From NCBI GenBank assembly GCA_018669475.1, contig JABHCC010000100.1:1-64000 (forward strand): a DNA stretch of 64,000 nt, given 5' to 3'. Source of the DNA: Bacteroidota bacterium. Lineage in GTDB: Bacteria > Bacteroidota > Bacteroidia > Bacteroidales > UBA12481. Position numbers and translations under genes: made by a program. Below, one piece after another: positions 41,849 to 56,491 of the stretch. The number at the start of each line of letters is the position of its first letter. Positions within the stretch are counted from its first letter, which is position 1. The notes beneath the pieces were generated by a model. That model had not been told where the DNA came from, did not search any database, and saw only the letters and a list, made by a program, of their open reading frames with translations.

Positions 41849-44167
41849 TCATTCCTCTTCAACACTCCGCCAATACCTGGCTTTAGATATCCCTGATACA
41901 TCACCACTACCATCAAAGGCCAGACCAAAATAATTAGGTTTCTGGCTAAATAACTCTTTCCCTTTATAAATAGCCTTTGATACATTAACCAAAGTGTACT
42001 TCAAAGCATTATTGGATCCCTTCAGGTAATAAAAATCTGCATTTGTCTTCATTTCGCCATAGCTGACTTTTCCAGATTCATAGGTGTATTTTGGTCGTCT
42101 GTAATCACGAATCATCTCTTTTCTTAAATCAGCCTTTACACCAATCTCATAGAATACCTCATCCTGATTAATCCTTAAGCATATCCCATTGCTTTCTTCC
42201 TCATCCTGAACCAATTCAATTTGTGCAAGCAAACTCTCAGGACGGATCTTACTATCATGCGGATACAATACGGTGACAAAGGCTATCGTTTGACCCAGTT
42301 CGAAGAACTGACCAGAATACTCTGATATTAAATACTCCTCCTGCCAGTACCGTGGTGCTTTTTCCACACTTTCAAAACGGTAATGTGATCTGGGAAAATG
42401 AATTAGTAATCTTTGATCTGAATCAACACTTAAATTTCTTAAGCTATCATATCCGGTATCATACCAATGTTCACCCTGCTCGTATATCTTTCTTGTATAC
42501 CACAAATTGGCTGCGGTTAAAAAGTTCTCACGCGTTCCTTTCAGCAAATCAACCACCACATAACAATTTGCTTCTTTTAGCCATACGATTATACGGTCTG
42601 ATTCATAAGCCATATTATCATCTATAACCCGTGTTCGCGAATAGTCAAAATCATTAAATGTTAAAAAATCAATCTTCTGCGTCCTTACATTCTTGTATCC
42701 TCCTGAATTTCTCAAGAAACCTAAAACACTCTGACCAGGAATCTCAGGGCGGTCAGTAGGTGAGTATCTAAACTCACCTTCTTTTTGCCCAAAGAATATC
42801 TTCTCAGGACGTACACACATCCTGTTATGGAAGTAATCCTGTCGGTATGCACCAAATGGTCCGCTAGGCATGAAATCACGATATCCCCCATCATGCAATA
42901 ATATTCCCCTATTATTCATTAGCAAAACAATACTATTCTCATCAGCATGCCCGTGTGTCATCTTTTCTTCCTCTACTACAATTCCATCACGAAGAAACCC
43001 TCTGGATAAGTAACCTGCTTCACCTTCATCTTTGTAGTTAAGCAACAGATAACTATCATCAGGATTCCAGCCCGATCGCATAACTACCTTTTTCCCAATC
43101 ACATCATCCATCACCTCTACACTACCCGACTTGGGCTGCACTGCTTCTACAGACTGATCTCCAAGAAGATAACAATCCAGAAGAATATATGCCAAACCGA
43201 TTGACTTAGTATTATCCCAATTAATATACTTCTCAGCAAGTTTCTCAGCCACCCATTTATGCTCTGATGACTGATAAACACCAGCTGCCGTTTCAAAATA
43301 AACCAGCCAACGCGACCAATTTGATTGCCAATAAGCATCTCCAAAATCCGGAATCATATAATCCGGACAAAAAAGCTCCAGGAAATACCTAGAATAATAA
43401 AACATCTCCGGCTCATAGAATAATTTGCTCATTTGGTCAGTTGCATATCCATATCCTATCAATGCATACAGCCAAATGGCATTATAATGAGAAGCATCCT
43501 CAATTTCCCAATTACCCCAATTGTCAAATATCAGAGCCTTTTCATACATCTTCCAGATTTCGATATCACAGTGCTCAGGCATTACTTTTAAAGCCAAGGC
43601 CATTGTTTCAGCCCTAAGGGCAGCCCTGTTCATGGCTCCCCATTCCTGACTCTGAAGTAAATAATTCACAGAATGGGCCATCACTTCTTCAAGATGCCTG
43701 GTTTCCTCCTCACTAAACCAAGAGCTTTCTTTCAGAATCTCGTACGGTCGCAAGAATCGCTGGGCAGTAAAGAAATCAGGTAGTGCCGGTACTCCATTTG
43801 TATAATCAGGCCTTTTCTCAGCAGCCCAATCAGGAAACACATCACGAAAGCTATCATATTTAAGTAGTATCTCTTTAGCTCTTTGTGCATACACTTTCTT
43901 TCTCTTCATCTTATACAGATGTGCGTATATTGTCGCAATTTCAAGCATTCGGGAAGGCGGTCGATATCCAAAAACAGAATTAGGATCAGTGTTAGCTCTC
44001 CATATCCCAGTCAGAGAATCCAGATTATCGTAAGTCCAGTTAGCTGAACGTTCGGCAAATTCCAGATATTTAACATCCAGTTTCTTTTGAGCACCTGCCG
44101 GATGAGCTGTCGCCAGCAAGATGATTAGAAGTAATTGCAGACCTTTTAGTTGTGACATATTTAACAT
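41849..44167 (-). CDS. Secreted heparinase II/III-type polysaccharide lyase
   Basis: The 772-residue protein has a signal peptide (hydrophobic, ending PAGAQ), a helical toroid at about 60-340 with repeated Trp/Tyr-rich helices (NYLLQSQEWGAMNRAALRAE), then a heparinase II/III-like beta domain with MTHGHADENSIVLLMNNRG and LLHDGGYRDF, the family signature including the metal-site His. Such lyases split uronate-containing polysaccharides by beta elimination, leaving an unsaturated uronate. It is the last gene of the nine-gene catabolic cluster, 27 bases after the Gfo/Idh gene. Substrate unknown; the only clearly exported member of the set. Confidence 0.82.
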   Translation of the reverse strand: MLNMSQLKGLQLLLIILLATAHPAGAQKKLDVKYLEFAERSANWTYDNLDSLTGIWRANTDPNSVFGYRPPSRMLEIATIYAHLYKMKRKKVYAQRAKEILLKYDSFRDVFPDWAAEKRPDYTNGVPALPDFFTAQRFLRPYEILKESSWFSEEETRHLEEVMAHSVNYLLQSQEWGAMNRAALRAETMALALKVMPEHCDIEIWKMYEKALIFDNWGNWEIEDASHYNAIWLYALIGYGYATDQMSKLFYEPEMFYYSRYFLELFCPDYMIPDFGDAYWQSNWSRWLVYFETAAGVYQSSEHKWVAEKLAEKYINWDNTKSIGLAYILLDCYLLGDQSVEAVQPKSGSVEVMDDVIGKKVVMRSGWNPDDSYLLLNYKDEGEAGYLSRGFLRDGIVVEEEKMTHGHADENSIVLLMNNRGILLHDGGYRDFMPSGPFGAYRQDYFHNRMCVRPEKIFFGQKEGEFRYSPTDRPEIPGQSVLGFLRNSGGYKNVRTQKIDFLTFNDFDYSRTRVIDDNMAYESDRIIVWLKEANCYVVVDLLKGTRENFLTAANLWYTRKIYEQGEHWYDTGYDSLRNLSVDSDQRLLIHFPRSHYRFESVEKAPRYWQEEYLISEYSGQFFELGQTIAFVTVLYPHDSKIRPESLLAQIELVQDEEESNGICLRINQDEVFYEIGVKADLRKEMIRDYRRPKYTYESGKVSYGEMKTNADFYYLKGSNNALKYTLVNVSKAIYKGKELFSQKPNYFGLAFDGSGDVSGISKARYWRSVEEE

Positions 44168-44194
44168 CAGTATAATTATTTAATGTTATTGTGT

Positions 44195-45376
44195 TCAGTA
44201 TTTTATATTGAATTTCTGTCCCGGAGAAGCATAAGCAAAGCCAGATTGACCTGGCATAACACCCTGTTGATAAGAAGAATATATCATGTAACTTAATCCC
44301 TGAACATATCTTCTGACCCCATCATCAACAACTAATGAAGGCTCGAAACCTTTTATAAGCTTAATCTCTGACAGTGCCTCAATTACCTGGGTATGTGCCA
44401 GAGAAGCCTCAGGCGGACAAATAAGCGTGGGTTTATTCTGGCATGCCTCAATTGCAACTTTCAATTTATGAAATTGCAAGGTATCATCGGGATTACCATA
44501 GTTCTTGATGCTTCCGTCATTAAAAACAGCAACAATATCTTTCGATAATTCTCCATAATAAACAACTCCATTATCACACTCTAAAATAAATAGCGGACCT
44601 TTCTCTGTATGAGTTGCATGCGAGCCATAGAAAGATATTCTTGTTTCATCCCTGGTAAATAGTTCAAGAACTGCTGTGTCAAATGTCTGAATGTTATAAG
44701 CCCTGTACAATTCTGCCTGACCTGATACCGGCACAGCTGATTCCTCCATACTGGATCCGGTAAGATAAAGCAGGTTATGTAAAAAATGTGCCATGGCATT
44801 ATTTACCGGATTATCATTAATGATTTCACCGGAGTGACTGTACTTCTTTCCAGCCCAATTATTCCTATTATAATAATTGTAATCTCTTGGCCATAATATC
44901 ATGGTTTTAGCACGTTTAACTTTACCTAATTTTCCATCCAGAAGATCTTGTTTCAGATCTCTGATTGCTTTGGAAAAGCTCCATTGATATCCGGTCATTA
45001 CCCATCCTTTGCTCGCATCCCGGGCCTCAATAATTCTATGTGCCTCTTGTAAAGAAGAAGCCAGTGGTTTATCAAGTAAAACATTACACCCATGCTTTAA
45101 AGCATCAATAGTCTGAGAACCATGCCTGTGAATTGGCGAAACAATAACGACCAGATCAATATTCTTCAGAGAATTTTTAAAGTCTTCGTATTCAGTGAAA
45201 CAATTTACTCCATTTTTTATCAGCTCCGGATAGATTTCCAAATCCACAAGTTTGGGATCAAATACTGAGCTAAGAATAGCATTGAAGCCATCCGGCAGGT
45301 TAAAAAATGCTTTCAAATAATGATAGCCATATCCTCCGGCTCCCGACAGGGCAACAGATATTTTGTGCTTATTCAT
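44195..45376 (-). CDS. Gfo/Idh/MocA family oxidoreductase
   Basis: The 393-residue protein has an N-terminal Rossmann domain with the glycine stretch SGAGGYGYHYLKAF, VVIVSPIHRHGSQTIDALKHG and LLDKPLASSLQEAH (the usual EKP is DKP here), then the substrate-binding sheet domain. The family oxidises or reduces ring hydroxyls of sugars and cyclitols with NAD(P), including C3 oxidation of glycosides. No signal peptide. Overlaps the SDR gene by 4 bases. Confidence 0.88.
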   Translation of the reverse strand: MNKHKISVALSGAGGYGYHYLKAFFNLPDGFNAILSSVFDPKLVDLEIYPELIKNGVNCFTEYEDFKNSLKNIDLVVIVSPIHRHGSQTIDALKHGCNVLLDKPLASSLQEAHRIIEARDASKGWVMTGYQWSFSKAIRDLKQDLLDGKLGKVKRAKTMILWPRDYNYYNRNNWAGKKYSHSGEIINDNPVNNAMAHFLHNLLYLTGSSMEESAVPVSGQAELYRAYNIQTFDTAVLELFTRDETRISFYGSHATHTEKGPLFILECDNGVVYYGELSKDIVAVFNDGSIKNYGNPDDTLQFHKLKVAIEACQNKPTLICPPEASLAHTQVIEALSEIKLIKGFEPSLVVDDGVRRYVQGLSYMIYSSYQQGVMPGQSGFAYASPGQKFNIKY

Positions 45377-46137
45377 TTTAATGATCTTATCTGCATACCT
45401 CCTGAAATTTCTACAACCATGCCATTGGCATAATTAAAATCGCCTGAAAGCAGAGATCTTACTGCTCCTGCAATATCCTCAGGCTGACCTATTCTTGCCT
45501 GCGGAATCAGGCCTTCGCTAATGAGTTTTGAATATTTCTCCATTACAGGTTTTGTCATGTCTGTTTCAATAACACCCGGTCTGACTTCAAATACTCTTAT
45601 TGATGAATCAGCTAAACGATCAGCCATAACTTGAGAAAACATACTCAAAGCGGCTTTTGACATGCAGTATTCGGCTCTGTTTATTGAGGAAGTAATTGCT
45701 GAAACAGAAGTAATAAAAATGATCGAGCCGGTATCAGCTTTTACCATACTTGGATATAATAGTTGAGTCAGAAAAACAGGGCCGGCAAGATTAATATTCA
45801 TCACTCTCGTATAGCTCTCTCTTGTCATTTCTAATACATCATTTCGTACTTTTGGTGCTACGCCAGCATTATGAATCACTACATTAAGCCAATCACATTC
45901 ATTATCAACGAAGTCTCTGATTTTGATTTGATCATCCTGATCTCCAATGTCAGCGCGCAAACATGAATAGCTTACATCATTTATCCGGGCCAGATCATTC
46001 ATTACTTTGTCATCCTGATCAATATTTCGGGATACTCCTATCACAGAATATCCAGCAGACAATAATTCCTTTGCTATTGAACGGCCTATTCCCCTGGATG
46101 CACCAGTTACTAATGCTGTCTTTCTTTCCTGATTCAT
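45373..46137 (-). CDS. Short-chain dehydrogenase/reductase
   Basis: The 254-residue protein is a classical SDR: TGASRGIGRSIA for cofactor, NAGVAP, and the catalytic Ser-Tyr-Lys in ITSVSAITSSINRAEYCMSKAAL, with a C-terminal ANGMVVEISGGMQIR. R/D-type residues after the first strand (VSRNIDQDD) do not settle NAD versus NADP. In the cluster it probably interconverts a keto and hydroxy intermediate. Overlaps both neighbours by 4 bases. Confidence 0.9.
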   Translation of the reverse strand: MNQERKTALVTGASRGIGRSIAKELLSAGYSVIGVSRNIDQDDKVMNDLARINDVSYSCLRADIGDQDDQIKIRDFVDNECDWLNVVIHNAGVAPKVRNDVLEMTRESYTRVMNINLAGPVFLTQLLYPSMVKADTGSIIFITSVSAITSSINRAEYCMSKAALSMFSQVMADRLADSSIRVFEVRPGVIETDMTKPVMEKYSKLISEGLIPQARIGQPEDIAGAVRSLLSGDFNYANGMVVEISGGMQIRSLK

Positions 46138-48131
46138 GAGCCTACTATTTTATTGTTTCTAAAATCTTTCCAGAGGGTCTCGAACCACTCTGTATCTACT
46201 GGTATTGAACGAACTTCTTGCCATTCAGTATTCAGCTCATCATCGGCAAACCAAAGCTGTAATTGATTCTCACTGGTGAAACATGGTGGTTCTTCCAGAT
46301 CATAGCAAAGTGTTTTATTTACCCAAGGCAAAGATTTACTTCCTGTTTGTTTAAGAATAATATATGAGCCACGACTTTCTCCTCCATTTGCAATATGCAA
46401 ATCAATTGCTTTCAGAAAGCACAGTTGAGAGATCAGGTGTTCACGCAAACGAAATAACTCACAGGCAGAATAGCCATTTGTGGGAATACTTAAGGCAAAT
46501 ACTCGTTCTTTTTGCTCCAAACAGTTTAATATGGCTTTCTTAATCTTCTGCTCATTTCTAATGAAACCAGCACTTTCAGACATTCTGGTTTTTAGAATCG
46601 AGAATTCTTTTTCATTATTCTGTGCTTCAGGAATACTCTCCTCATAATCTCCTGTATTGAACAAATCATAAATTTGGTTTTCAACAGAATATATAAATGC
46701 ACTTCTCTTTACTTTAAAAGATTTATTTCGTGACTTGATCATCTGGGAAGCCCTTATTCCTCCAACCTGACCCGCATTCAGAGCTGAGCCTCCCGGACGA
46801 TAAACTCCATGGCTTCCATTCACTTCTCCGACGGGAAATAAATTACTGATGTTACTTTCCCACCAAACAGAAGCAACAAGTCCCCCATTGCAATGTTGTG
46901 CACATACATCAATCTCAAGCGCCTCAGTATATAAATCAATCCTATTTCGTCGATATAAGTCTATAGCGGGTCGGTTCATTTGCTCAAGTCTCAGAATAGG
47001 AGTATCAGCATTTACATTAGAATTAGCCAGATATTCTTTAAGCAGATCCCCGCCTTCTGAGATACTAATTTCTTCTCCGTCAGATCCTTTTAAATTTGAA
47101 CGATAATCAATAAAGACTCGTCTATTAAAGATGTATTTCTCCTGATAAACAAGGAGATCAATGAGAGATGAACCTTGATTATCAACCTTTCTGGCATCAA
47201 ATGGCCACTGATATCCTTTCAAAAATATTGCATTAATCAAATCGGCGGGCCTTGTGAAATATTCAGATAAAAACTCATATTCCCTTCCGGCCTCATCCAC
47301 ACTATAATATCTTGGAATTACTTGCTGATAAGATCCTGACAAATTCCAGCGAAATTTAGTTGAGGCGATCCCAAATTGTGACTCTGTAAGGTTACAAGCT
47401 TTAGCTCCAATATCCATTGCCAAACCCATTGCACCAACCTGAGATTCAGGATATACTGATGCCTCGTACAATCCTCCCGGGCCACCAGTAGCCAAAATAG
47501 TATTCTCTGCCTGAATAAGCAGGTAATTGGCTTTTGCATCTGGGTCGCTTCCCAAGCTCAATGCCAAAACTCCAATAAGTTTATCACCCTGAGGTCCTGA
47601 TGTTGTCAATAGCTTTATAACCTGATAACGATCCAGGATTGGAATATTTGCCTCAACAACTTTTCTTGCCAGTGCCTCGAACATAAGTTTGCTTGTAAGA
47701 GGGCCTGCTGACGTACCGCGTCCTTTAGGATCATGATCAGTAAGATATCCCGGAAAGCGGCCATAACGGTCAAATGGGAATGGTACTCCAGCACTAACAA
47801 GATTGTAGAAAGCCTGACTTGACAGTGCTGCTTCAATCAGGGCGATATCTCCATGCATTGCACCTCCTTTGAACAGACTTTCAGCCATATCCAGAACACT
47901 ATCTCCTTCAGGTCCATCGGCAGCTAATCGGTGATAAGTTTGCTTATCGGAGCCAGCATTATTTGAGGTGCCACCACCCCATTTCTCAGTAATTACAGAA
48001 ATTTTTTCAATCCCATTCTCATGTAGTTGGACAGCTGCATTTAATCCTGCTGCTCCTGAACCAATAACCAGTGCATCGAGTCGCAAAAACTCAAAATTTA
48101 TTCCTGCTATATCAAGTTTTTCTTTATGCAT
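46134..48131 (-). CDS. FAD-dependent fumarate reductase/aspartate oxidase-like protein
   Basis: The 665-residue protein has the dinucleotide loop ALVIGSGAAGLNAAVQLHEN, a flavin-binding ATGGPGGLYEA, and the substrate and FAD region HCNGGLVASVWWESNISNLF plus GEVNGSHGVYRPGGSALNAG, all as in the flavoprotein subunit superfamily of fumarate reductase, succinate dehydrogenase and L-aspartate oxidase. No twin-arginine or other signal peptide. The family moves hydride to or from a C=C next to a carboxylate or carbonyl. The substrate residues differ from true fumarate reductases, so function is open. The C-terminal 170 residues are divergent. It overlaps the old-yellow-enzyme gene by 8 bases. Confidence 0.8.
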   Translation of the reverse strand: MHKEKLDIAGINFEFLRLDALVIGSGAAGLNAAVQLHENGIEKISVITEKWGGGTSNNAGSDKQTYHRLAADGPEGDSVLDMAESLFKGGAMHGDIALIEAALSSQAFYNLVSAGVPFPFDRYGRFPGYLTDHDPKGRGTSAGPLTSKLMFEALARKVVEANIPILDRYQVIKLLTTSGPQGDKLIGVLALSLGSDPDAKANYLLIQAENTILATGGPGGLYEASVYPESQVGAMGLAMDIGAKACNLTESQFGIASTKFRWNLSGSYQQVIPRYYSVDEAGREYEFLSEYFTRPADLINAIFLKGYQWPFDARKVDNQGSSLIDLLVYQEKYIFNRRVFIDYRSNLKGSDGEEISISEGGDLLKEYLANSNVNADTPILRLEQMNRPAIDLYRRNRIDLYTEALEIDVCAQHCNGGLVASVWWESNISNLFPVGEVNGSHGVYRPGGSALNAGQVGGIRASQMIKSRNKSFKVKRSAFIYSVENQIYDLFNTGDYEESIPEAQNNEKEFSILKTRMSESAGFIRNEQKIKKAILNCLEQKERVFALSIPTNGYSACELFRLREHLISQLCFLKAIDLHIANGGESRGSYIILKQTGSKSLPWVNKTLCYDLEEPPCFTSENQLQLWFADDELNTEWQEVRSIPVDTEWFETLWKDFRNNKIVGS

Positions 48132-49422
48132 AAAAATCCCTGTCTCTAACGATACAACCTGAGCTTAAGCCATTCCGCATTCGATTAGTGCAACCTGAAC
48201 AGGCTATGCATACTTTTTTAATATTAGCCTCCTTTTCACGATAAAGGTCTGAAACTAAGTCAGGATATGCAATTCCTAATCTGCCAACTCCTACAGCCAT
48301 CGCCATATTTTTCTCAATAATTCCGGCAGCAACATTTGGAAAGAAATGTCTCAGCCATGATAATCCGGCCCCTACTACAGGGTTTGAAGTAAACTTACTG
48401 CTTTCTGAGCAGAGATGAATCATTCTTGCCACACCGGTCAGCTGGTGTTCAGGAGATTCAACACTATTTGTACTTGTCTTGTCAAATGGACGTCCTATCC
48501 ATGGATTAATATATGGGATTCCTGCACTTACACTCCATAAGCTAACTCCTTCTGAATCCATTGTATTCATGAGGGTTTCCACTTCTGAAAGATCTATTGT
48601 TGCAGATCCATCATCAGAAACCCCGAAGCCTTGATCAAGTCCATCATAGACATTAATTCTCGCACTAATAACTAATTGAGGTTCCGTTTGTCTAACACCT
48701 TCAATAATTTCTTTCATCAGGCGCAAACGTTTTTGCAGCTCCGGGCCACCATAAATACTGTTGGCTCTCTCCCTTGCAAATAGCAGCTCGTGTAAAAGAT
48801 AACCATGGCATGCTTTGATATCTACTCCATCAAATCCTGCTCTTCTCGCCAGAGAAGCTGCATCAATATGAGCATCCCTGATTCTTTTTAAATCATCGTC
48901 GTTTAATAAAATGGCTGATGAACTGGCTTCAGGCAGTCCATCACCCTGTGTCACAATTCTAGGAGCGGGACTCCCCTCGGGCTTAGCATACCTTCCAGAA
49001 TGGGTGAGCTGTATAATAGTTCTCACCTCAGAAGTGTCTGACCCAACCGGCTTTCCCTTGGCATGTATTCTTTCAACCAAGTGTTTAAAACTGTCTATAT
49101 TCTTTTGGTGTAAGAATAGTTGGGCTGGATTCGACCTGCCTTCTTCAGTAACACTAGTTGCTTCAGCCCATATTAATCCACTTCCTCCGGATGAAAACCT
49201 TTGATAGCGGCGAAAGCTAAGATCCCCGGGTGAACCGTCAGGTTTGGCATCAAACCCTTCCATAGGATGAATAAGAAATCGATTGGCAACAGACAGGTTT
49301 CCAAAAGACCACCCTGAAAATAAGCTATCAATATTCTCACTCCATGGTAAATCCAAACCCAATTCCCGGGCATGAGATTTTATTTCATCTGCAGTTTTAT
49401 AATGAAAGCGTTTATTTATCAT
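48124..49422 (-). CDS. Old-yellow-enzyme family reductase with C-terminal Fe-S cysteines
   Basis: The 432-residue FMN TIM barrel shows HPMEGFDAKPDGSPGDL, QLTHSGRYAKP and GVDIKACHGYLLHELL. In typical OYEs the substrate pair is His-x-x-His/Asn; here the first is K203, with H206 and Y208 kept. The C-terminus has C405, C408, C411 and C423 (CX2CX2CX11C), close to the 4Fe-4S set of 2,4-dienoyl-CoA reductase, but the following flavin/NADH domains of that enzyme are absent. It is expected to reduce an activated alkene using an external electron donor. Overlaps its neighbours by 8 and 4 bases. Confidence 0.85.
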   Translation of the reverse strand: MINKRFHYKTADEIKSHARELGLDLPWSENIDSLFSGWSFGNLSVANRFLIHPMEGFDAKPDGSPGDLSFRRYQRFSSGGSGLIWAEATSVTEEGRSNPAQLFLHQKNIDSFKHLVERIHAKGKPVGSDTSEVRTIIQLTHSGRYAKPEGSPAPRIVTQGDGLPEASSSAILLNDDDLKRIRDAHIDAASLARRAGFDGVDIKACHGYLLHELLFARERANSIYGGPELQKRLRLMKEIIEGVRQTEPQLVISARINVYDGLDQGFGVSDDGSATIDLSEVETLMNTMDSEGVSLWSVSAGIPYINPWIGRPFDKTSTNSVESPEHQLTGVARMIHLCSESSKFTSNPVVGAGLSWLRHFFPNVAAGIIEKNMAMAVGVGRLGIAYPDLVSDLYREKEANIKKVCIACSGCTNRMRNGLSSGCIVRDRDFYA

Positions 49423-50408
49423 TGGATATTCAGATTTACAACTATTTCCTTTAGCCTCCTGATATTCTCTGTCATACGAGATTCACATACATCACGCCAT
49501 AAATTACGATCCATAAAATTACGCTCAATGACCGATCTTTCTGATTCTGCTTCCTGAGCAAGTGTAAATAGTTTACTTAATTCCCTATCATTCAAATTCG
49601 GAAATTTATTCCTGAAAACCTGATCATTAATTGGCAAATCGAATGAACCGTTGTGATCTTCAATACTAAGATTAAGCTCAGGAAATGTATGGTAAAGTTC
49701 TTTGATAATATCCGGCAGGTGAATATAGCCCTGATCAATAGCTGCCGGAAAACTTATAAGGCCATTAGAAGAGGACAGGAGTCCACCATCTTTAATGTGA
49801 GTGCTTACGATCCAGGGTAATAAGCGTTTAACTGCATCTACAGGATTTTCGAGCATTGTAAGCAGATTCATGGTATCAAGACATATACCAATTCCTTCAC
49901 CAGGACCAATCCCCAGCAATTCGAAAACTTTCAGTAACTCGAAACTTGTAAGCTCAAAATGTGTTTCGATGGCCCATATTACGCCAAGGTCTTTAATAAT
50001 GGGATGTAACTTTCTGAGTTCATCCGCCATTTGATTAATGAACAGACTGGTATCGGGACTATTATTTTGCCACCGCATTAGTCCACCACTGCAACTGCGA
50101 ACAATTTGCACCCTCAGGAAAGCAGCTTCTTCTGCCATTAACTGATTTTGGGATAGAATTTCTTTAGCCCCCCAATTCTGCATATCAAGTGGAAAATGCT
50201 GACCACCGCCCCACTCAAGATACATATCATTATCCTTAGCAAAGTCTTTGACATCCCTGAGCAAACCTTTGTCATAATGTCGGTTCGGTCTGCCTGGTAT
50301 ACCAGAGAATGCCACTCCGGCAGCTCCATTCTTCAAAGCCCATTCCATGGTTTCATGGGGGCTTAGTCCCAGAGGCAATAATCCGTAATTATCTATTCCA
50401 ACTTTCAC
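49419..50408 (-). CDS. Sugar isomerase/epimerase-type TIM barrel protein
   Basis: The 329-residue protein belongs to the AP endonuclease 2-like (xylose isomerase-like) barrels. Metal ligands are visible in IWAIETHFELTS, GICLDTMN, VSTHIKDG and LSIEDHNG. Family members isomerise or epimerise sugars, or eliminate/hydrate 3-keto-glycosides. No signal peptide. The start codon is GTG at 50408, directly after the repeat-like leader 50409-50501. First gene of the second, tightly overlapping half of the cluster. Confidence 0.85.
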   Translation of the reverse strand: MKVGIDNYGLLPLGLSPHETMEWALKNGAAGVAFSGIPGRPNRHYDKGLLRDVKDFAKDNDMYLEWGGGQHFPLDMQNWGAKEILSQNQLMAEEAAFLRVQIVRSCSGGLMRWQNNSPDTSLFINQMADELRKLHPIIKDLGVIWAIETHFELTSFELLKVFELLGIGPGEGIGICLDTMNLLTMLENPVDAVKRLLPWIVSTHIKDGGLLSSSNGLISFPAAIDQGYIHLPDIIKELYHTFPELNLSIEDHNGSFDLPINDQVFRNKFPNLNDRELSKLFTLAQEAESERSVIERNFMDRNLWRDVCESRMTENIRRLKEIVVNLNIQ

Positions 50409-50501
50409 CGTTAATATTTATTTCATTTACCGGATGTATCTCACTAACAAAAAATAATTATCGTCGTGTGTCAAAATGGTTTTTTTATCATGCTTGCTTC
50501 A
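50409..50501 (-). repeat. Leader-like dispersed repeat, copy B (before the isomerase gene)
   Basis: Fills the whole 93-base gap. Shares ordered blocks with 24069-24175 on the same strand: GATGAAGCAAGCAT-like start, ACACACG, TTTTTTGTT and TAAATATTAACGG ending at the start codon. It is the only real gap within an otherwise overlapping gene set, so it probably holds a promoter or leader for the downstream half. Confidence 0.5.
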
Positions 50502-52802
50502 TCAGATTTTCATTCCAGCCTTTTTTACCATATAATCCGGATCAATATAGGGATCCAGTTTCCCGTATTTCTTCATCAGTGCAATCTTCGTTCTTATCTG
50601 ATCTTGTATGTTCTCACCATACATTAGCGGGGATTCACCATTCTTCATCAAAGCAATGAAAGATATATCTGAGTCAAATAAGAGAAGCAATTCTTCCATA
50701 TTACTTATCTCCGATGCTATCATCTCATCCAATAAAGCTCTGTACTTTTTTCTATCTGAATCCTCTGTTGAGCGAATATAGCCGTGCACTCCTGTTATCC
50801 ATGCAGCAATATTACGGTGAGTCATGATCCAATTTTTCAATGCCTTAATTCTAATTAGCTGGTCGTATAATATACCACCCTTACCACTCTTATCACTTTT
50901 GCGCTCAACGGCCTCAGTCAGAATAAGAATGGCTTTATCAAGATGTTTCCAAACCTCTGCATCTATTCTTGGTAAAGCTTTCTCACAATGCTCAAATGAT
51001 GAAATATCGAATAGAACATCACGGGCAAGATCAACATTATTAGGATTATGAGGTGTCGTACACATCATATCCTCGTAATAATCTTTCTCATTCTGAGGAA
51101 TGGCCTCAATATTCGGAACCAGCGGACGTGTCCATAGCCTATACCATGCGAAGCCAATGGTATTATACAGGCCTGATACATTAGGGAAATTCAGAATCCC
51201 CTGCTCAACTTCATCCCATGCCTGAAGTAATTCGTCAGGACTATCTCCCTTTGTCCATTTTCTGGCAATAGAATATAAAACTGAATTAATATCCTGGTCA
51301 TGACCATATTGAAATCTTCGTAATATCTCGTAATTTACAAAATAGGGCACCTGTTCAGGGGGAAATGTTCCTCCATACACAACCAGATCCCTGACCTGTC
51401 CTTCCTTTAATGTTTGCAGTCTCTTCCACACTAGTTTTGGATATGGAATCCCCATTAAAGGGGCAAAGAGGACCTCAGGGCCCATACCAAAATAGAAAGC
51501 AGATTTCACACCTCTTTCTCTGCTTTCCAGTATTTTATCAGTTTCAATCTTATCAAAACCCTGATGATGAGCTGATCCGCCATTAAGCATATGTGAATCT
51601 TCATAAACCGGATGGCTATATGGCATATCCCAGCCTTTAGCAGCCAGTGATGCAGTTTCAACATCCAGTCCATCACCCAGGCCATTCCAAATAATGTCAT
51701 GTTCTCCATAGAAAGATTCCAGTCGTGTAACAACTCTGAATTCAGGATTTATCTCACGTCCTGCTTCAAGAAGAGACTGCAAAAAATTCAAAGCATTATT
51801 TCCAGCCAGGCGGGCAATTTCAGCATCATCTTTCCATTCTCTAACAAGGTATGCTCCACCATTTCTACCCACGTACAATGATTTTGTATGTTCAAATCCA
51901 GCACCACTATCATTGGTCCATATGGTGAGAAAACCTAATTCAGGCACTTCAGTCAGCAGTTTCCTTACCATTTCTTTATAATGATTAATAACTGCCGGAT
52001 GAGTGATGGTCATGTTATACCGCGGTTTAAAACTTCTGAACGGATGATCAACCCTAGCTCCCCTAAGCATTGGATATTGAGAGAAGAATTCCTCAGGAAC
52101 GGATCTGGGTTCAAAACACATCAAGCCTGGAACCAGACCCTTTTCAGTTACCCACTTAGCGTTTTGTTTCAGATAATTCAGATTTGCTGAGAGATAATAG
52201 TTTGGATACAGCCCTTTATTCAAAGAACTATAAACAAATTGGTCAAGGGCCGGACAATATGTATAAAACATAGGATATGTCTCTCCTTTTACTCCTGTCT
52301 CAAGCCCCATTGGGTATGCCAAACCATTTACCTCTACATGTGTTACAGCTTGTTTAGCCAGGTTGCGTATATAGCTTTCCCGATTTAAACCACTTGATAC
52401 TCGTCCTTCCTGGGTCAGGAAATAATCATAAGCTGTTCGCAACTGTTCGAATGCCAGGCTAAATATCTTTTTACAGCCATTGTCGTCAATAGTCTCTTCT
52501 CCACAATCGAGGAACAAGTGTGTGAGATATGAAAAAAGATATTTTTTATCCGGCAGGAGAATATGACCCCTTCCCTTAATACTAATTTCAAATCCAAATT
52601 TCTTTTTCCTGCCGGATAAGACAGGCTCATCTCGAGATCCACAAAGTTGAATCAGGCAAGCTTGATTTTCCAATTCATCATCCTTAAGCTCCAATTCCCA
52701 ACTCAGGTTCATTTCTGCAATGAACTCACAAACTAAACTTTTAAGTTCTTTAGAAAGCCGAACCTTTTTCACCGATGTGAGAGTCTGTTTAATATTAGTC
52801 AT
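50502..52802 (-). CDS. Putative glycoside hydrolase-like protein, family not recognised
   Basis: The 766-residue protein has no signal peptide. An N-terminal alpha/beta region (1-140, with RGHILLPDKKYLFSYLTHLF) resembles the domain that precedes the barrel in GH20, GH67 and related enzymes. The centre has barrel-like segments including VPGLMCFEPRSVPEEFF, ELGFLTIWTNDSGAGFEHTK and VVTRLESFYGEHDIIWNGLG, rich in acidic and aromatic residues near strand ends. The rest is helical. I infer an intracellular glycosidase, perhaps on a glucuronide; catalytic residues cannot be assigned. It overlaps the following gene in transcription order by none and the preceding by 4 bases. Confidence 0.5.
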   Translation of the reverse strand: MTNIKQTLTSVKKVRLSKELKSLVCEFIAEMNLSWELELKDDELENQACLIQLCGSRDEPVLSGRKKKFGFEISIKGRGHILLPDKKYLFSYLTHLFLDCGEETIDDNGCKKIFSLAFEQLRTAYDYFLTQEGRVSSGLNRESYIRNLAKQAVTHVEVNGLAYPMGLETGVKGETYPMFYTYCPALDQFVYSSLNKGLYPNYYLSANLNYLKQNAKWVTEKGLVPGLMCFEPRSVPEEFFSQYPMLRGARVDHPFRSFKPRYNMTITHPAVINHYKEMVRKLLTEVPELGFLTIWTNDSGAGFEHTKSLYVGRNGGAYLVREWKDDAEIARLAGNNALNFLQSLLEAGREINPEFRVVTRLESFYGEHDIIWNGLGDGLDVETASLAAKGWDMPYSHPVYEDSHMLNGGSAHHQGFDKIETDKILESRERGVKSAFYFGMGPEVLFAPLMGIPYPKLVWKRLQTLKEGQVRDLVVYGGTFPPEQVPYFVNYEILRRFQYGHDQDINSVLYSIARKWTKGDSPDELLQAWDEVEQGILNFPNVSGLYNTIGFAWYRLWTRPLVPNIEAIPQNEKDYYEDMMCTTPHNPNNVDLARDVLFDISSFEHCEKALPRIDAEVWKHLDKAILILTEAVERKSDKSGKGGILYDQLIRIKALKNWIMTHRNIAAWITGVHGYIRSTEDSDRKKYRALLDEMIASEISNMEELLLLFDSDISFIALMKNGESPLMYGENIQDQIRTKIALMKKYGKLDPYIDPDYMVKKAGMKI

Positions 52803-54379
52803 GTTCCCGTATCCAATTCTATTTTTATAATGGGGTTTACTGTTTGAGACAGGTGAAAATCAATATAAGCGGAGTCATTCAGTTCGCATGACTCATAACT
52901 AACATCCTGCTTATCTACCTTCAAACCATTAACCCGGGCCTGATCTGGTATCAGAATGTGTGCAAATATATTTTCAAATTCACCCTTCAGGGCAAATAGC
53001 ATTTCATTATCGGTCAATTCATAGGTATAGCCAATACCTGCCTCAGTTGCACTATAGGATATCTCGAATTCAGCTTTCTTTGAGCCAAGAGCTGTCCATT
53101 TAGGACTGAAACTTAAGTTTCTAAAGGAATGACCTTCGTCTTTAATACCGCAAAGGCCTTGAATAAGAGCTATAAGCATCGCAGAAGAGCCCCAACCATC
53201 TGTAGGCGTAGCATCCGGACTAGTACTGGTTTCAATGCTTGAGGCCTTACCATCAGGAAAATACCACAAATAGCTTTCTCCATTTGAAGTAAGGTTTTCA
53301 TATTTAAATAATTGTTCGAGTCCGAACTTTTCAAATCCATTTTCTAGAGCGGCGAGAGCCAGTTCCCCTCCTGCAAGTGGAAATATGCCACCATTAATAT
53401 ATGCTCCTGCAATTAGTTTTTCATCTCCAAAAATCCCGTCAGGAAAAGGTGGCTCAATTGAGAACCATGGTGCAAAAACTCCAGTTTCATCAGCACGGTA
53501 TTGGTACTCACGAAACATTGCAGCTGCTTTTGCTGAATCAGTTATCCCTCTGTTAACCGCCATTGGATTAGACAAGCTTAGCTGAATATCTTCCTTGCAT
53601 TCAGGTATTTCCACATCAGAAAGTTTAATAAAATGCTGATAATATCTGCCATTCCAGCACAGCTTGTTGATCCGCTTCTTAATTTTCTCAGCTTGCTGCA
53701 GGTAATAGTTTTGCTTATCGGGTTTGTCAACTGTTTGACAAATTTTTGACAAACAGATAAGAGCTTCATACAGACCGGTATTATCGCCATGAAAGATACC
53801 CCAGAATGTATTCTTGTCGATCTGAAATTGCAGCCACTCATGCTTACCGGCACTATATGCAAAATCCCAGGTATCAATTGTATATGGCCTTTTCACTAAC
53901 TGGTAGTCTTGATCCCAGCGTTGATCATCAGTCATTAAATAGAAAAGTGCTCTTTCAAGATGAGGTAATAATTTCCTTATCCATGGAAAATCCCCTGTAG
54001 CCTGCCAGGCCAGCCATGCAGCTTTCACAAAACGATACTCAACATCCGCTTCAACTGGTACACGCACATATTTGGTCCAGTTTTCACGTTCGCATGGTTT
54101 TTTCTCAGGATAAGTTGTGAAATAATCAAAAATACGACCATTTAAGGCCTGTGTATCGGCGAAATGCTGTACTACAGACTTTACATCATTTTCAAAATAT
54201 CTCACTCCCCGAAGCATATCAGAATAATCTCTGATCCATATAGACTGAGCATCTGGTGAACGGTAGCCTCTTATATTCTTCCCATCAATCGAGACTTCCA
54301 GAATATCCTGTGAAAGGAAGTCCTTAATCCTCGGAGCGAGTCGATTTATCCAGGGAGTATCTGAATGAAGAAGAATCAT
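52799..54379 (-). CDS. Six-hairpin (alpha/alpha)6 glycosidase-like protein
   Basis: The 526-residue cytoplasmic protein has the helical toroid pattern of GH15/GH63/GH78-type enzymes: SIWIRDYSDMLRGVRYFE, EYRFVKAAWLAWQATGDF, IDTWDFAYSAGKHEW, GDNTGLYEALICLSK and a late SPDATPTDGWGSSAMLIALI, then a short beta domain. The WIRDYSD and TDGW acids are candidate catalytic residues. It probably hydrolyses a small imported glycoside. A 15-base-pair hairpin lies within it (53714-53761). It overlaps the next gene by 4 bases and follows the symporter by 6. Confidence 0.6.
   Translation of the reverse strand: MILLHSDTPWINRLAPRIKDFLSQDILEVSIDGKNIRGYRSPDAQSIWIRDYSDMLRGVRYFENDVKSVVQHFADTQALNGRIFDYFTTYPEKKPCERENWTKYVRVPVEADVEYRFVKAAWLAWQATGDFPWIRKLLPHLERALFYLMTDDQRWDQDYQLVKRPYTIDTWDFAYSAGKHEWLQFQIDKNTFWGIFHGDNTGLYEALICLSKICQTVDKPDKQNYYLQQAEKIKKRINKLCWNGRYYQHFIKLSDVEIPECKEDIQLSLSNPMAVNRGITDSAKAAAMFREYQYRADETGVFAPWFSIEPPFPDGIFGDEKLIAGAYINGGIFPLAGGELALAALENGFEKFGLEQLFKYENLTSNGESYLWYFPDGKASSIETSTSPDATPTDGWGSSAMLIALIQGLCGIKDEGHSFRNLSFSPKWTALGSKKAEFEISYSATEAGIGYTYELTDNEMLFALKGEFENIFAHILIPDQARVNGLKVDKQDVSYESCELNDSAYIDFHLSQTVNPIIKIELDTGT
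53714..53761. repeat. Long imperfect hairpin inside a coding region
   Basis: Arms 53714-53719 with 53756-53761 (6 pairs) and 53722-53730 with 53746-53754 (9 pairs), separated by a small internal bulge and a 15-base loop that contains a further TTTGACAAA copy. Structure is clear in DNA and in the minus-strand mRNA. Confidence 0.6.
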
Positions 54380-54385
54380 AATAGA

Positions 54386-56491
54386 TTATTTTATAGTCAC
54401 CACAATCCAAAGCAAGAGAATTATTATTCCTACCAAAACCCAGCTTCCGAAGAATCCCAGGTAATCTATTTTCTTAAGTTTCAACATTTCCCATTTTGTA
54501 TTGGGAAACATCTTGCGATGCTTGAAACGATCAGGATTATTATAAGAGATCTCCAGTTCTTCCTTTTCCATTTCATCGCTTGCTTGCACAGGTGTATGCA
54601 TCTTTGCAAAGAATGCATTGGTCACATTGCGCGGCACTTCTTTGGTAAAAGCTGAAATAAGAAATAGCAGGAGAAATGGAAAAAGAGCTGAGAAGAAAAA
54701 CCTGAGAGCCACTAACTGTGCTTTCGACCACCTACTGAAATCTATCCCCAACCAACTAACTACCCATATTTCTGCCTGAAAACGACCTTGTCCAATTTTT
54801 GGTGAATCAGAATCTTTAGGATTCTCACGTACTACTTGTTCAAAGAAAATTCCGACCGGCAATACAACATGTTCTTTTTTCATAGTCTCTCCAACAAAAG
54901 CAGCCTGTCCATTTTCGACATCAGCCTGAAGAGCTTTTGTTTCAATCATGACAGTTTTCCCAACAGTCTCAACAGTAAAAGCTTCTCTGGTAGTTATAGC
55001 CTCAATTGAAGGAAAGAGATTAGGTATAACTGCATAGATAAGCAGGCAAACAGAGGCTTGAATGATCACAGCTGTTTTAGTTAATCTGCGCCAGAGGAAT
55101 CCAAGCCAGATAGCTGCTCCAAAAACAGCAGGAACAGATATTATATACTTAAACAGTTCAAGCAAGTTATCCACATATAATGCAACTCCAATTCCACCCA
55201 GAAGGGTAACAGCAATCACAATACGGCCAATGAACAGGTAATGCTTTTCAGTTTTGTCTGGGTATAGCGGTTTATATATATTTCTGATGAACAAGGCAGA
55301 ATAAGAAACTGAACTGGCATCGAGAGTTGACATATTGGCCGCTAATATTCCTACAAGCATTAATCCTATTGCACCAGGAAAAAGCAAATCGTTAGTCATG
55401 TAGCCCCAAATCAGATCAGGATCATGAAGCTTTCCTGCATAAAGGCCAATTGCTATTAGTCCGGCCAAAGCCCACAAAATCATGATAAACCTTTTTGTAA
55501 ACATCCCTGCTATCATTCCAAATCGTGCTGTACTTTCATTTGTTGCAGAGCCAGCAGTCTGCATTCCGGAGGCTACTGCAATTATGGAAACCAGATTCGC
55601 CAGTACCATTGCCAGAATTGTATACCAGGCATATTCACTCATAGTTGCAGAGCCAAAGAGCTCAAACATATAATCCGGGACTGTTGCATGCAAACCGCTG
55701 AATCCTCCGATCTTTGACAATCCTACAGGAATCAGAATAGCGCTGAAAATAATTATCAACACACCTTGTATGGCGTCGGTTATTGCTGCGGCTCTGAATC
55801 CCCCCATCATAGTGTAGATTCCAACAATTAGTGCATAAATGAAGTAGAATAGTATCGGATTTGTATGGCTAACAAATGATTTCAATTCTCCTCTTTTTGA
55901 CTTCTCATGCAGATATTCATATCGAAGTATATCCTCTTCGGTATCGATAGTGTCAAGTTGTTTTCTTAATTCCTGATACTCCTTGAAATCAAATACAGCC
56001 TGCTTTTCAGTTGCTGAATACTCTTCAATTTGTTTAGGTGTCATTGCCATCATAGTTTTGGCAGCGACCATATATCCAACTCCACCTCCCAGTAATGACA
56101 GAAGCAAAATAAATACAGCATAAGCAGCACCTAACATCTTACTATTGAAGCGCTCAGTAAAGAAATCTCCAATCGTAGTCAGGCGTGATCTTCTGAAAAA
56201 TAAGGTAGAGAACCAATAAAATGGAGTAAGAAACAATACAAGGAATTGTATCCACATTCCACCAATACCCTGACGATAAATTTCACGCGAGGTAGCAACA
56301 GCCTGATCAGCATTTGTTGAACAACCAAAATTCAGAAAAAACTGGTAAAACTTGTTAAGTTTTCGTCCGGCAAGAAAAAAATCTTGTGTATCCTGATTTT
56401 TAGTAGCTGCTCGCTTTCCCAGCCAGAGTACAAGGCCAATAAAAAGTATTATGATTAGTAAATCGATGATGTGGATTCCCCAGACAGTCAT
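54386..56491 (-). CDS. Sodium:solute symporter (SSS family)
   Basis: The 701-residue membrane protein has the SSS core: IHIIDLLIIILFIGLVLWLG as first segment, CSTNADQAVATSREIYRQG, MGGFRAAAITDAIQGVLII and NMSTLDASSVSYSALFIRNI with the sodium-site Ser residues. It is longer than usual, with a soluble insertion near residues 150-210 and another near 500-590 before the last membrane segments. It imports a sugar, uronate or similar solute with Na+. First gene of the catabolic cluster, preceded by a candidate operator. Confidence 0.92.
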   Translation of the reverse strand: MTVWGIHIIDLLIIILFIGLVLWLGKRAATKNQDTQDFFLAGRKLNKFYQFFLNFGCSTNADQAVATSREIYRQGIGGMWIQFLVLFLTPFYWFSTLFFRRSRLTTIGDFFTERFNSKMLGAAYAVFILLLSLLGGGVGYMVAAKTMMAMTPKQIEEYSATEKQAVFDFKEYQELRKQLDTIDTEEDILRYEYLHEKSKRGELKSFVSHTNPILFYFIYALIVGIYTMMGGFRAAAITDAIQGVLIIIFSAILIPVGLSKIGGFSGLHATVPDYMFELFGSATMSEYAWYTILAMVLANLVSIIAVASGMQTAGSATNESTARFGMIAGMFTKRFIMILWALAGLIAIGLYAGKLHDPDLIWGYMTNDLLFPGAIGLMLVGILAANMSTLDASSVSYSALFIRNIYKPLYPDKTEKHYLFIGRIVIAVTLLGGIGVALYVDNLLELFKYIISVPAVFGAAIWLGFLWRRLTKTAVIIQASVCLLIYAVIPNLFPSIEAITTREAFTVETVGKTVMIETKALQADVENGQAAFVGETMKKEHVVLPVGIFFEQVVRENPKDSDSPKIGQGRFQAEIWVVSWLGIDFSRWSKAQLVALRFFFSALFPFLLLFLISAFTKEVPRNVTNAFFAKMHTPVQASDEMEKEELEISYNNPDRFKHRKMFPNTKWEMLKLKKIDYLGFFGSWVLVGIIILLLWIVVTIK

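Follow-up and report, generated by a model that had tools for sequence, protein, structure and literature searches.

What reaction might a gene cluster carry out with two flavoenzymes at its core? The question is raised by nine open reading frames on the minus strand, at positions 41849-56491 of a 64,000-nt stretch of contig JABHCC010000100.1 (the window), from a 5.6-Mb Bacteroidota genome placed by its nearest named relatives. The core consists of an Old Yellow Enzyme (OYE)-family flavoprotein (48124..49422), an SdhA/NadB-superfamily flavin adenine dinucleotide (FAD) protein (46134..48131) and a short-chain dehydrogenase/reductase (SDR; 45373..46137). An original prediction, made from the letters of the window, had described nine same-strand genes mostly overlapping by 4-8 bases, and the reading frames were found in place. 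In transcription order the junctions are a gap of 6, an overlap of 4, a gap of 93, overlaps of 4, 8, 4 and 4, and a gap of 27 bases, so that five of the eight overlap. Our answer, tentative and falling just short of probable, is that the nine genes form a glycan or glycoside catabolic operon in which, judging from sequence, the OYE-FAD-SDR core would turn some sugar acid into 2-keto-3-deoxygluconate (KDG) or a closely related 2-keto-3-deoxy compound.

Conservation of the OYE-FAD-SDR module

Relatives of the FAD protein number 253 in GTDB genomes, and 80 loci from several phyla were fetched around such genes (designated by L-numbers); gene presence in these loci was scored by tblastn and gene order by clustering the neighborhoods. 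An SDR gene lies near the FAD gene in 68 of the 80 loci and an OYE gene in 59, with the order OYE-FAD-SDR in 40 loci, OYE-SDR-FAD in six and OYE-FAD in nine, the last partly owing to contig ends. This clustering of the three genes across phyla exceeds chance, and they constitute a conserved unit. The original prediction had proposed a search for recurrence of the OYE, FAD and Gfo/Idh genes together; the first two do recur as a pair, but a Gfo/Idh relative is present in only 13 of the 80 loci and does not belong to the core. The module is rare in Bacteroidota: random samples by order and by phylum contained the FAD protein in three other genomes of 247, and among 395 the window's own genome was the only one to have it.

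This OYE is missing from all Actinomycetota loci, where the FAD-SDR pair remains. When the whole genomes behind OYE-less loci were searched, the L048 genome and five actinobacterial genomes gave no OYE relatives other than distant ones (80 bits or less), and three further genomes gave no match above the limit; a close OYE is encoded elsewhere in the genome for L046, L066 and L076. Actinobacterial FAD-SDR pairs without the Fe-S OYE are found at L078, L079, L083, L085 and L088, and a luciferase-like monooxygenase gene lies near the pair in Propioniciclava (L078:5681-6703). Two same-family relatives have the layout interrupted by unrelated insertions, with an ATPase-like gene just before OYE in one (L008:6950-8293) and a nuclease-like gene between OYE and FAD in the other (L007:2822-3967).

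Linkage to KDG metabolism

A gene for 2-keto-3-deoxy-6-phosphogluconate (KDPG) aldolase lies within 12 loci (L010, L014, L017, L022, L024, L027, L054, L065, L066, L071, L078 and L083), whereas chance would place a single-copy gene in about 0.3; L063 adds a thirteenth, partial match. The 12 loci span six phyla (Aminicenantota, Calditrichota, Planctomycetota, Bacillota, Actinomycetota and Bacteroidota). The aldolase coordinates from the genome searches agree with the loci, and in 10 of the 12 the module-linked aldolase is the sole PF01081 protein of its genome. A KDG kinase usually accompanies the aldolase. Both identities are confirmed by PF01081 and PF00294, and by NF041633 at 908 bits. The arrangement varies among lineages: in Aminicenantes, Calditrichota and Planctomycetota an aldolase-kinase fusion often follows directly after the SDR gene, in Tepidanaerobacteraceae (L071) the kinase precedes the triad and the aldolase follows it, and in Propioniciclava (L078, L083) both lie directly before SDR-FAD. 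L010 has the window-type order TIM-OYE-FAD-SDR-Gfo-lyase, and its cluster closes with the only KDPG aldolase gene of the genome. A Rhizobium plasmid carries the order Gfo/Idh-FAD-KdgK-like kinase-aldolase. Downstream of the fusion, a conserved protein of about 670 aa is encoded at L017:14807-16813, L022:16233-18266 and L024:16646-18670; the L017 member has no Pfam match.

Seven KDG-linked genomes (L014, L017, L022, L024, L027, L065 and L066) contain no PF04962 (KduI/IolB), PF02614 (UxaC), PF03786 (UxuA) or PF04295 (altronate dehydratase) protein. Incomplete genomes are among those searched, and the 20 genomes tested for the aldolase, UxuA and altronate dehydratase families were chosen partly for carrying the KDG link, so the counts are not those of a random sample. 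The module would share its presumed end product, KDG, with the KduI/KduD and UxaCBA/UxuAB hexuronate pathways, whose isomerase and altronate/mannonate dehydratase genes are the ones absent from these seven genomes. PF04962 is absent from 28 of 45 genomes, with one partial match at a contig end in G000, and a Pfam scan found no KduI in the window cluster. The original suggestion that the cluster works instead of the usual KduI/KduD-type route fits these observations, because genomes lacking KduI or UxaC have a conserved gene set linked to KDG metabolism, and the associated uronate idea receives indirect support.

Several observations weigh against KDG formation by the module. Enolase-superfamily proteins, which could include a gluconate-type dehydratase, occur in all 20 genomes, and another source of KDG, such as an IlvD/EDD-type dehydratase, is possible; MR_MLE_C is uninformative in this respect, being present in every genome, controls included. 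Within 10 kb of about 20 Bacteroidales loci there is no KDG gene. The window genome itself has UxaC, UxuA and GH88, and its KDPG aldolase lies on a different contig. On the FAD tree the KDG-linked proteins are dispersed and do not mark one clade, so the family as a whole may not share one function. Finally, in Escherichia coli the FAD-SDR pair has a CoA transferase and an enoyl-CoA hydratase as neighbors, for which a simple KDG route offers no explanation.

The enolase-superfamily proteins also bear on a stereochemical switch, in which the FAD protein would oxidize, and the SDR re-reduce, a 2-keto-3-deoxy acid made by a dehydratase (for example 2-keto-3-deoxygalactonate) to yield KDG. FAD-SDR is indeed the part common to Actinomycetota and E. 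coli, and one enolase-superfamily gene lies near it in L078. We nevertheless consider such a switch unlikely, as MR_MLE proteins are common everywhere and the OYE of the anaerobes would be left unexplained.

The flavoproteins and the SDR

The OYE (PF00724, 2e-31) is a single-domain protein of 432 aa with a predicted 4Fe-4S site. As the first inspection of its cysteines had suggested, C405, C408, C411 and C423 align with the four 4Fe-4S ligands of 2,4-dienoyl-CoA reductase FadH, and they are invariant in 52/52 relatives. The alignment of these relatives also shows conservation of K203, C205, H206, Y208 and E55. The OYE barrel and the equivalent of FadH Tyr167 (Y208) are common to both proteins, whereas Lys203, Cys205, His206 and Glu55 replace FadH Met162, Ser164, Glu165 and His27, and FadH His253 corresponds to Pro303 in 52/52. 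Unlike FadH, the window protein stops just past the last cysteine and has no C-terminal FAD/NADPH domain. Because it ends after the 4Fe-4S cluster, it probably needs an outside electron partner.

Some members of the SdhA/NadB superfamily operate with an Fe-S partner. The FAD protein at the core of the module has an FAD_binding_2 domain (PF00890, 3e-20), and in this sense the earlier description of a fumarate-reductase-like flavoprotein holds. When 62 proteins are aligned with FrdA and NadB, however, FrdA His233, Glu246 and the GPRD Arg are not conserved, and of the catalytic set only the R391 equivalent (R445) is kept, so that what is common with fumarate reductase and L-aspartate oxidase is the fold and one arginine. 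To name the protein a fumarate reductase on catalytic grounds is therefore not warranted. The window protein forms a long branch in the FAD tree, yet 135 of 139 conserved positions are intact, which makes decay unlikely. The closest relative of the gene (L009:5332-7326), which is 57% identical and flanked by the same genes, contains a single in-frame stop in its metagenome-assembled genome, which may reflect assembly error or decay.

The SDR scores above cut-off for NF009386 (275.9 bits). Assignment as KduD was rejected, the score of 124.8 bits being below the cut-off of 338.85. SDR reductases that make KDG from the alginate product DEH (4-deoxy-L-erythro-5-hexoseulose uronate) are known (PMC4306948, PMC8563752), and by analogy with these DEH reductases an SDR step toward KDG would have good precedent (PMC4306948). 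The alginate route, in which DEH reductase (A1-R/FlRed) is followed by KDG kinase and KDPG aldolase, likewise combines SDR, kinase and aldolase and does not need KduI (PMC4306948, PMC5334617), but it is fed by alginate lyases and has no FAD/OYE pair.

The combination of OYE, SDR and SdhA-like enzyme classes is itself not new, since contiguous genes for an NADH:flavin oxidoreductase (OYE), an SDR and a succinate-dehydrogenase-like flavoprotein carry out equol biosynthesis (PMC4381290). The original prediction knew of no described pathway with this set; we found none for the nine genes, but at the level of enzyme class the core trio does match the daidzein, dihydrodaidzein and tetrahydrodaidzein reductases. 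A corresponding reduction of an aromatic or similar aglycone can thus be envisaged, in which Gfo/Idh and TIM proteins deglycosylate by 3-keto elimination, as Gfo and isomerase-like proteins are known to do (PMC7676230), OYE reduces C=C, the SDR reduces C=O and the SdhA-like protein removes a hydroxyl. The identical enzyme classes and the CoA transferase and crotonase of the E. coli locus are in keeping with this proposal. The equol enzymes act on isoflavones, however, whereas the module here has KDG genes and glycosidase-like proteins as neighbors and a single-domain OYE without the NAD(P)H/FAD domain, and FAD-SDR is found without OYE. An equol-like reduction is accordingly quite improbable.

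A model for KDG formation

The observed conservation of the module, its KDPG aldolase/KDG kinase link and the missing standard enzymes in seven genomes form the basis of a model in which the direction, the enzyme roles, the complex and the product are our suggestions. Delivery of a sugar acid would fall to the symporter, to the glycosidase- and lyase-like proteins and to the Gfo/Idh-TIM pair, and the core would convert this acid to KDG or a near 2-keto-3-deoxy acid; KDG kinase and KDPG aldolase would then yield pyruvate and glyceraldehyde-3-phosphate. We infer a flavin-dependent redox step on the sugar acid by the FAD protein. In anaerobes, the 4Fe-4S cluster and FMN of the OYE may carry electrons of the FAD protein to or from NAD(P)H, a relay role suggested because the OYE is without the FAD/NADPH domain of FadH. 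The SDR would perform the last NAD(P)H reduction to KDG, like DEH reductase and KduD. Formation of KDG by this module would be a previously undescribed route, and we found no description in the literature of an OYE tied to KDG or uronate.

A more specific form of the model, which we regard as possible and hold with some reserve, is that the FrdA-like FAD protein and the 4Fe-4S OYE make up one two-headed redox enzyme in an undescribed flavin-dependent pathway from sugar acid to KDG, one that would be common among uncultured anaerobes and, as a FAD-SDR version lacking the OYE, present in the majority of complete E. coli genomes.

Accessory genes of the window cluster

Pfam matches support the SSS symporter, AP_endonuc_2 TIM barrel, Oxidored_FMN, FAD_binding_2, SDR and Gfo/Idh assignments. 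The two glycosidases and the heparinase-type lyase named in the original prediction (proteins of 766, 526 and 772 aa) match no Pfam family over cut-off, and sequence searches of the PDB with them gave no significant match; what stands of these names is a likeness of two structure models to glycosidase and lyase folds and a weak GH116/MGH1 likeness of the 526-aa protein.

The sodium:solute symporter (54386..56491; PF00474, 8e-19) is likely to take up a sugar or sugar acid, and Aminicenantes (L012, L024) and Phycisphaerae (L066) encode relatives with 59-72% identity close to the FAD gene. The 526-aa glycosidase-like protein (52799..54379; PF04685, 3e-4, under cut-off) has relatives in five further loci. 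The 766-aa protein (50502..52802), without an assigned family, is a putative exo-glycosidase of GH67/GH84/GH20/GH138-like fold, judging from its model (pLDDT 71.5). Its best Foldseek match is GH138 6hzg (4.8e-12), and VIA comparison with GH67 1mqr gives Z 18.1 and rmsd 4.9 over 505 aligned residues. Several glycoside hydrolase families tie at Z ~18, so no substrate can be deduced, and the VIA comparison covers the listed families.

The Gfo/Idh/MocA oxidoreductase (44195..45376; PF01408, 2e-16) and the AP_endonuc_2 TIM-barrel isomerase/eliminase-like protein (49419..50408; GTG start; PF01261, 2e-12) occur together in the cluster, as in keto-glycoside elimination systems. The pair might thus act in a 3-keto-glycoside route, Gfo/Idh oxidizing, the TIM protein eliminating and OYE reducing a 2-hydroxy-3-keto-glycal, and such an enone intermediate is known from levoglucosan catabolism (PMC7676230). 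We consider this very unlikely: in the known pathway the glycal undergoes hydration, for which an OYE is not required, and neither gene is core, the TIM relative being present in 17 of the 80 loci (mostly directly upstream of OYE) and Gfo/Idh still less often.

The 772-aa protein (41849..44167) has a signal-like N-terminus and is a putative secreted lyase. Its model is weak (pLDDT 58) and resembles PL39/PL17 and glycosaminoglycan lyases (Foldseek, PL39 6jp4, 4e-13; VIA Z 18.6, rmsd 7.6, 432 aligned). The protein has an HxHxD-type motif, HGHADENS, but the PL39 motif ADNH (PMC10056287) reads AMNR or PMNR in all five relatives, so that lyase activity is not assured. This gene was central to the original prediction, in which a lyase yields 4,5-unsaturated uronates whose double bond OYE and the FAD protein reduce or isomerize. 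Lyase-like genes in the window, L009, L010, L061 and L066, a GH88-like neighbor of the L062 triad, a rhamnogalacturonan-I lyase near FAD-SDR in Cellulomonas (L088) and the frequent absence of the KduI family speak for that chemistry. Yet the lyase gene is confined to those five neighborhoods, most of the tested KDG-linked genomes have no GH88/GH105 or a marginal match, the fumarate reductase catalytic residues are not conserved and the OYE site is not that of FadH; saturating the bond would, moreover, give a 4-deoxyuronate that needs re-oxidation to reach KDG. We therefore judge saturation of lyase products unlikely, and a weaker option than flavin-dependent conversion of a sugar acid to KDG.

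The module in E. coli and other settings

The FAD gene is present in 3,106 of 5,426 complete E. coli genomes, as a FAD-SDR pair without this OYE; the two proteins have 35-43% identity to those of the module. In E. coli HS the genes lie between ytfB and rplI, where they are arranged as SDR, TIM protein, enoyl-CoA hydratase, CoA transferase, FAD and TRAP transporter (operon coordinates L093:7937-16860 and L098:3024-11947), whereas in K-12 MG1655 yjfZ stands beside rplI in place of the operon. We found no description of this ytfB-rplI operon in the literature. Elsewhere, the neighbors of FAD-SDR in Cellulomonas and Ruania include rhamnogalacturonan and rhamnose-type genes, while Treponema and Lachnospiraceae have GH4 or GH78 genes, which hints at pectin-like substrates there.

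If the model is correct, it would supply a KDG-forming step for lineages such as Aminicenantes, in which the searches turned up neither a standard uronate enzyme nor one of KduI type, and would account for a large group of proteins named only "FAD-binding protein". It would also give a lead to the function of the ytfB-rplI operon, which could be tested genetically in E. coli.

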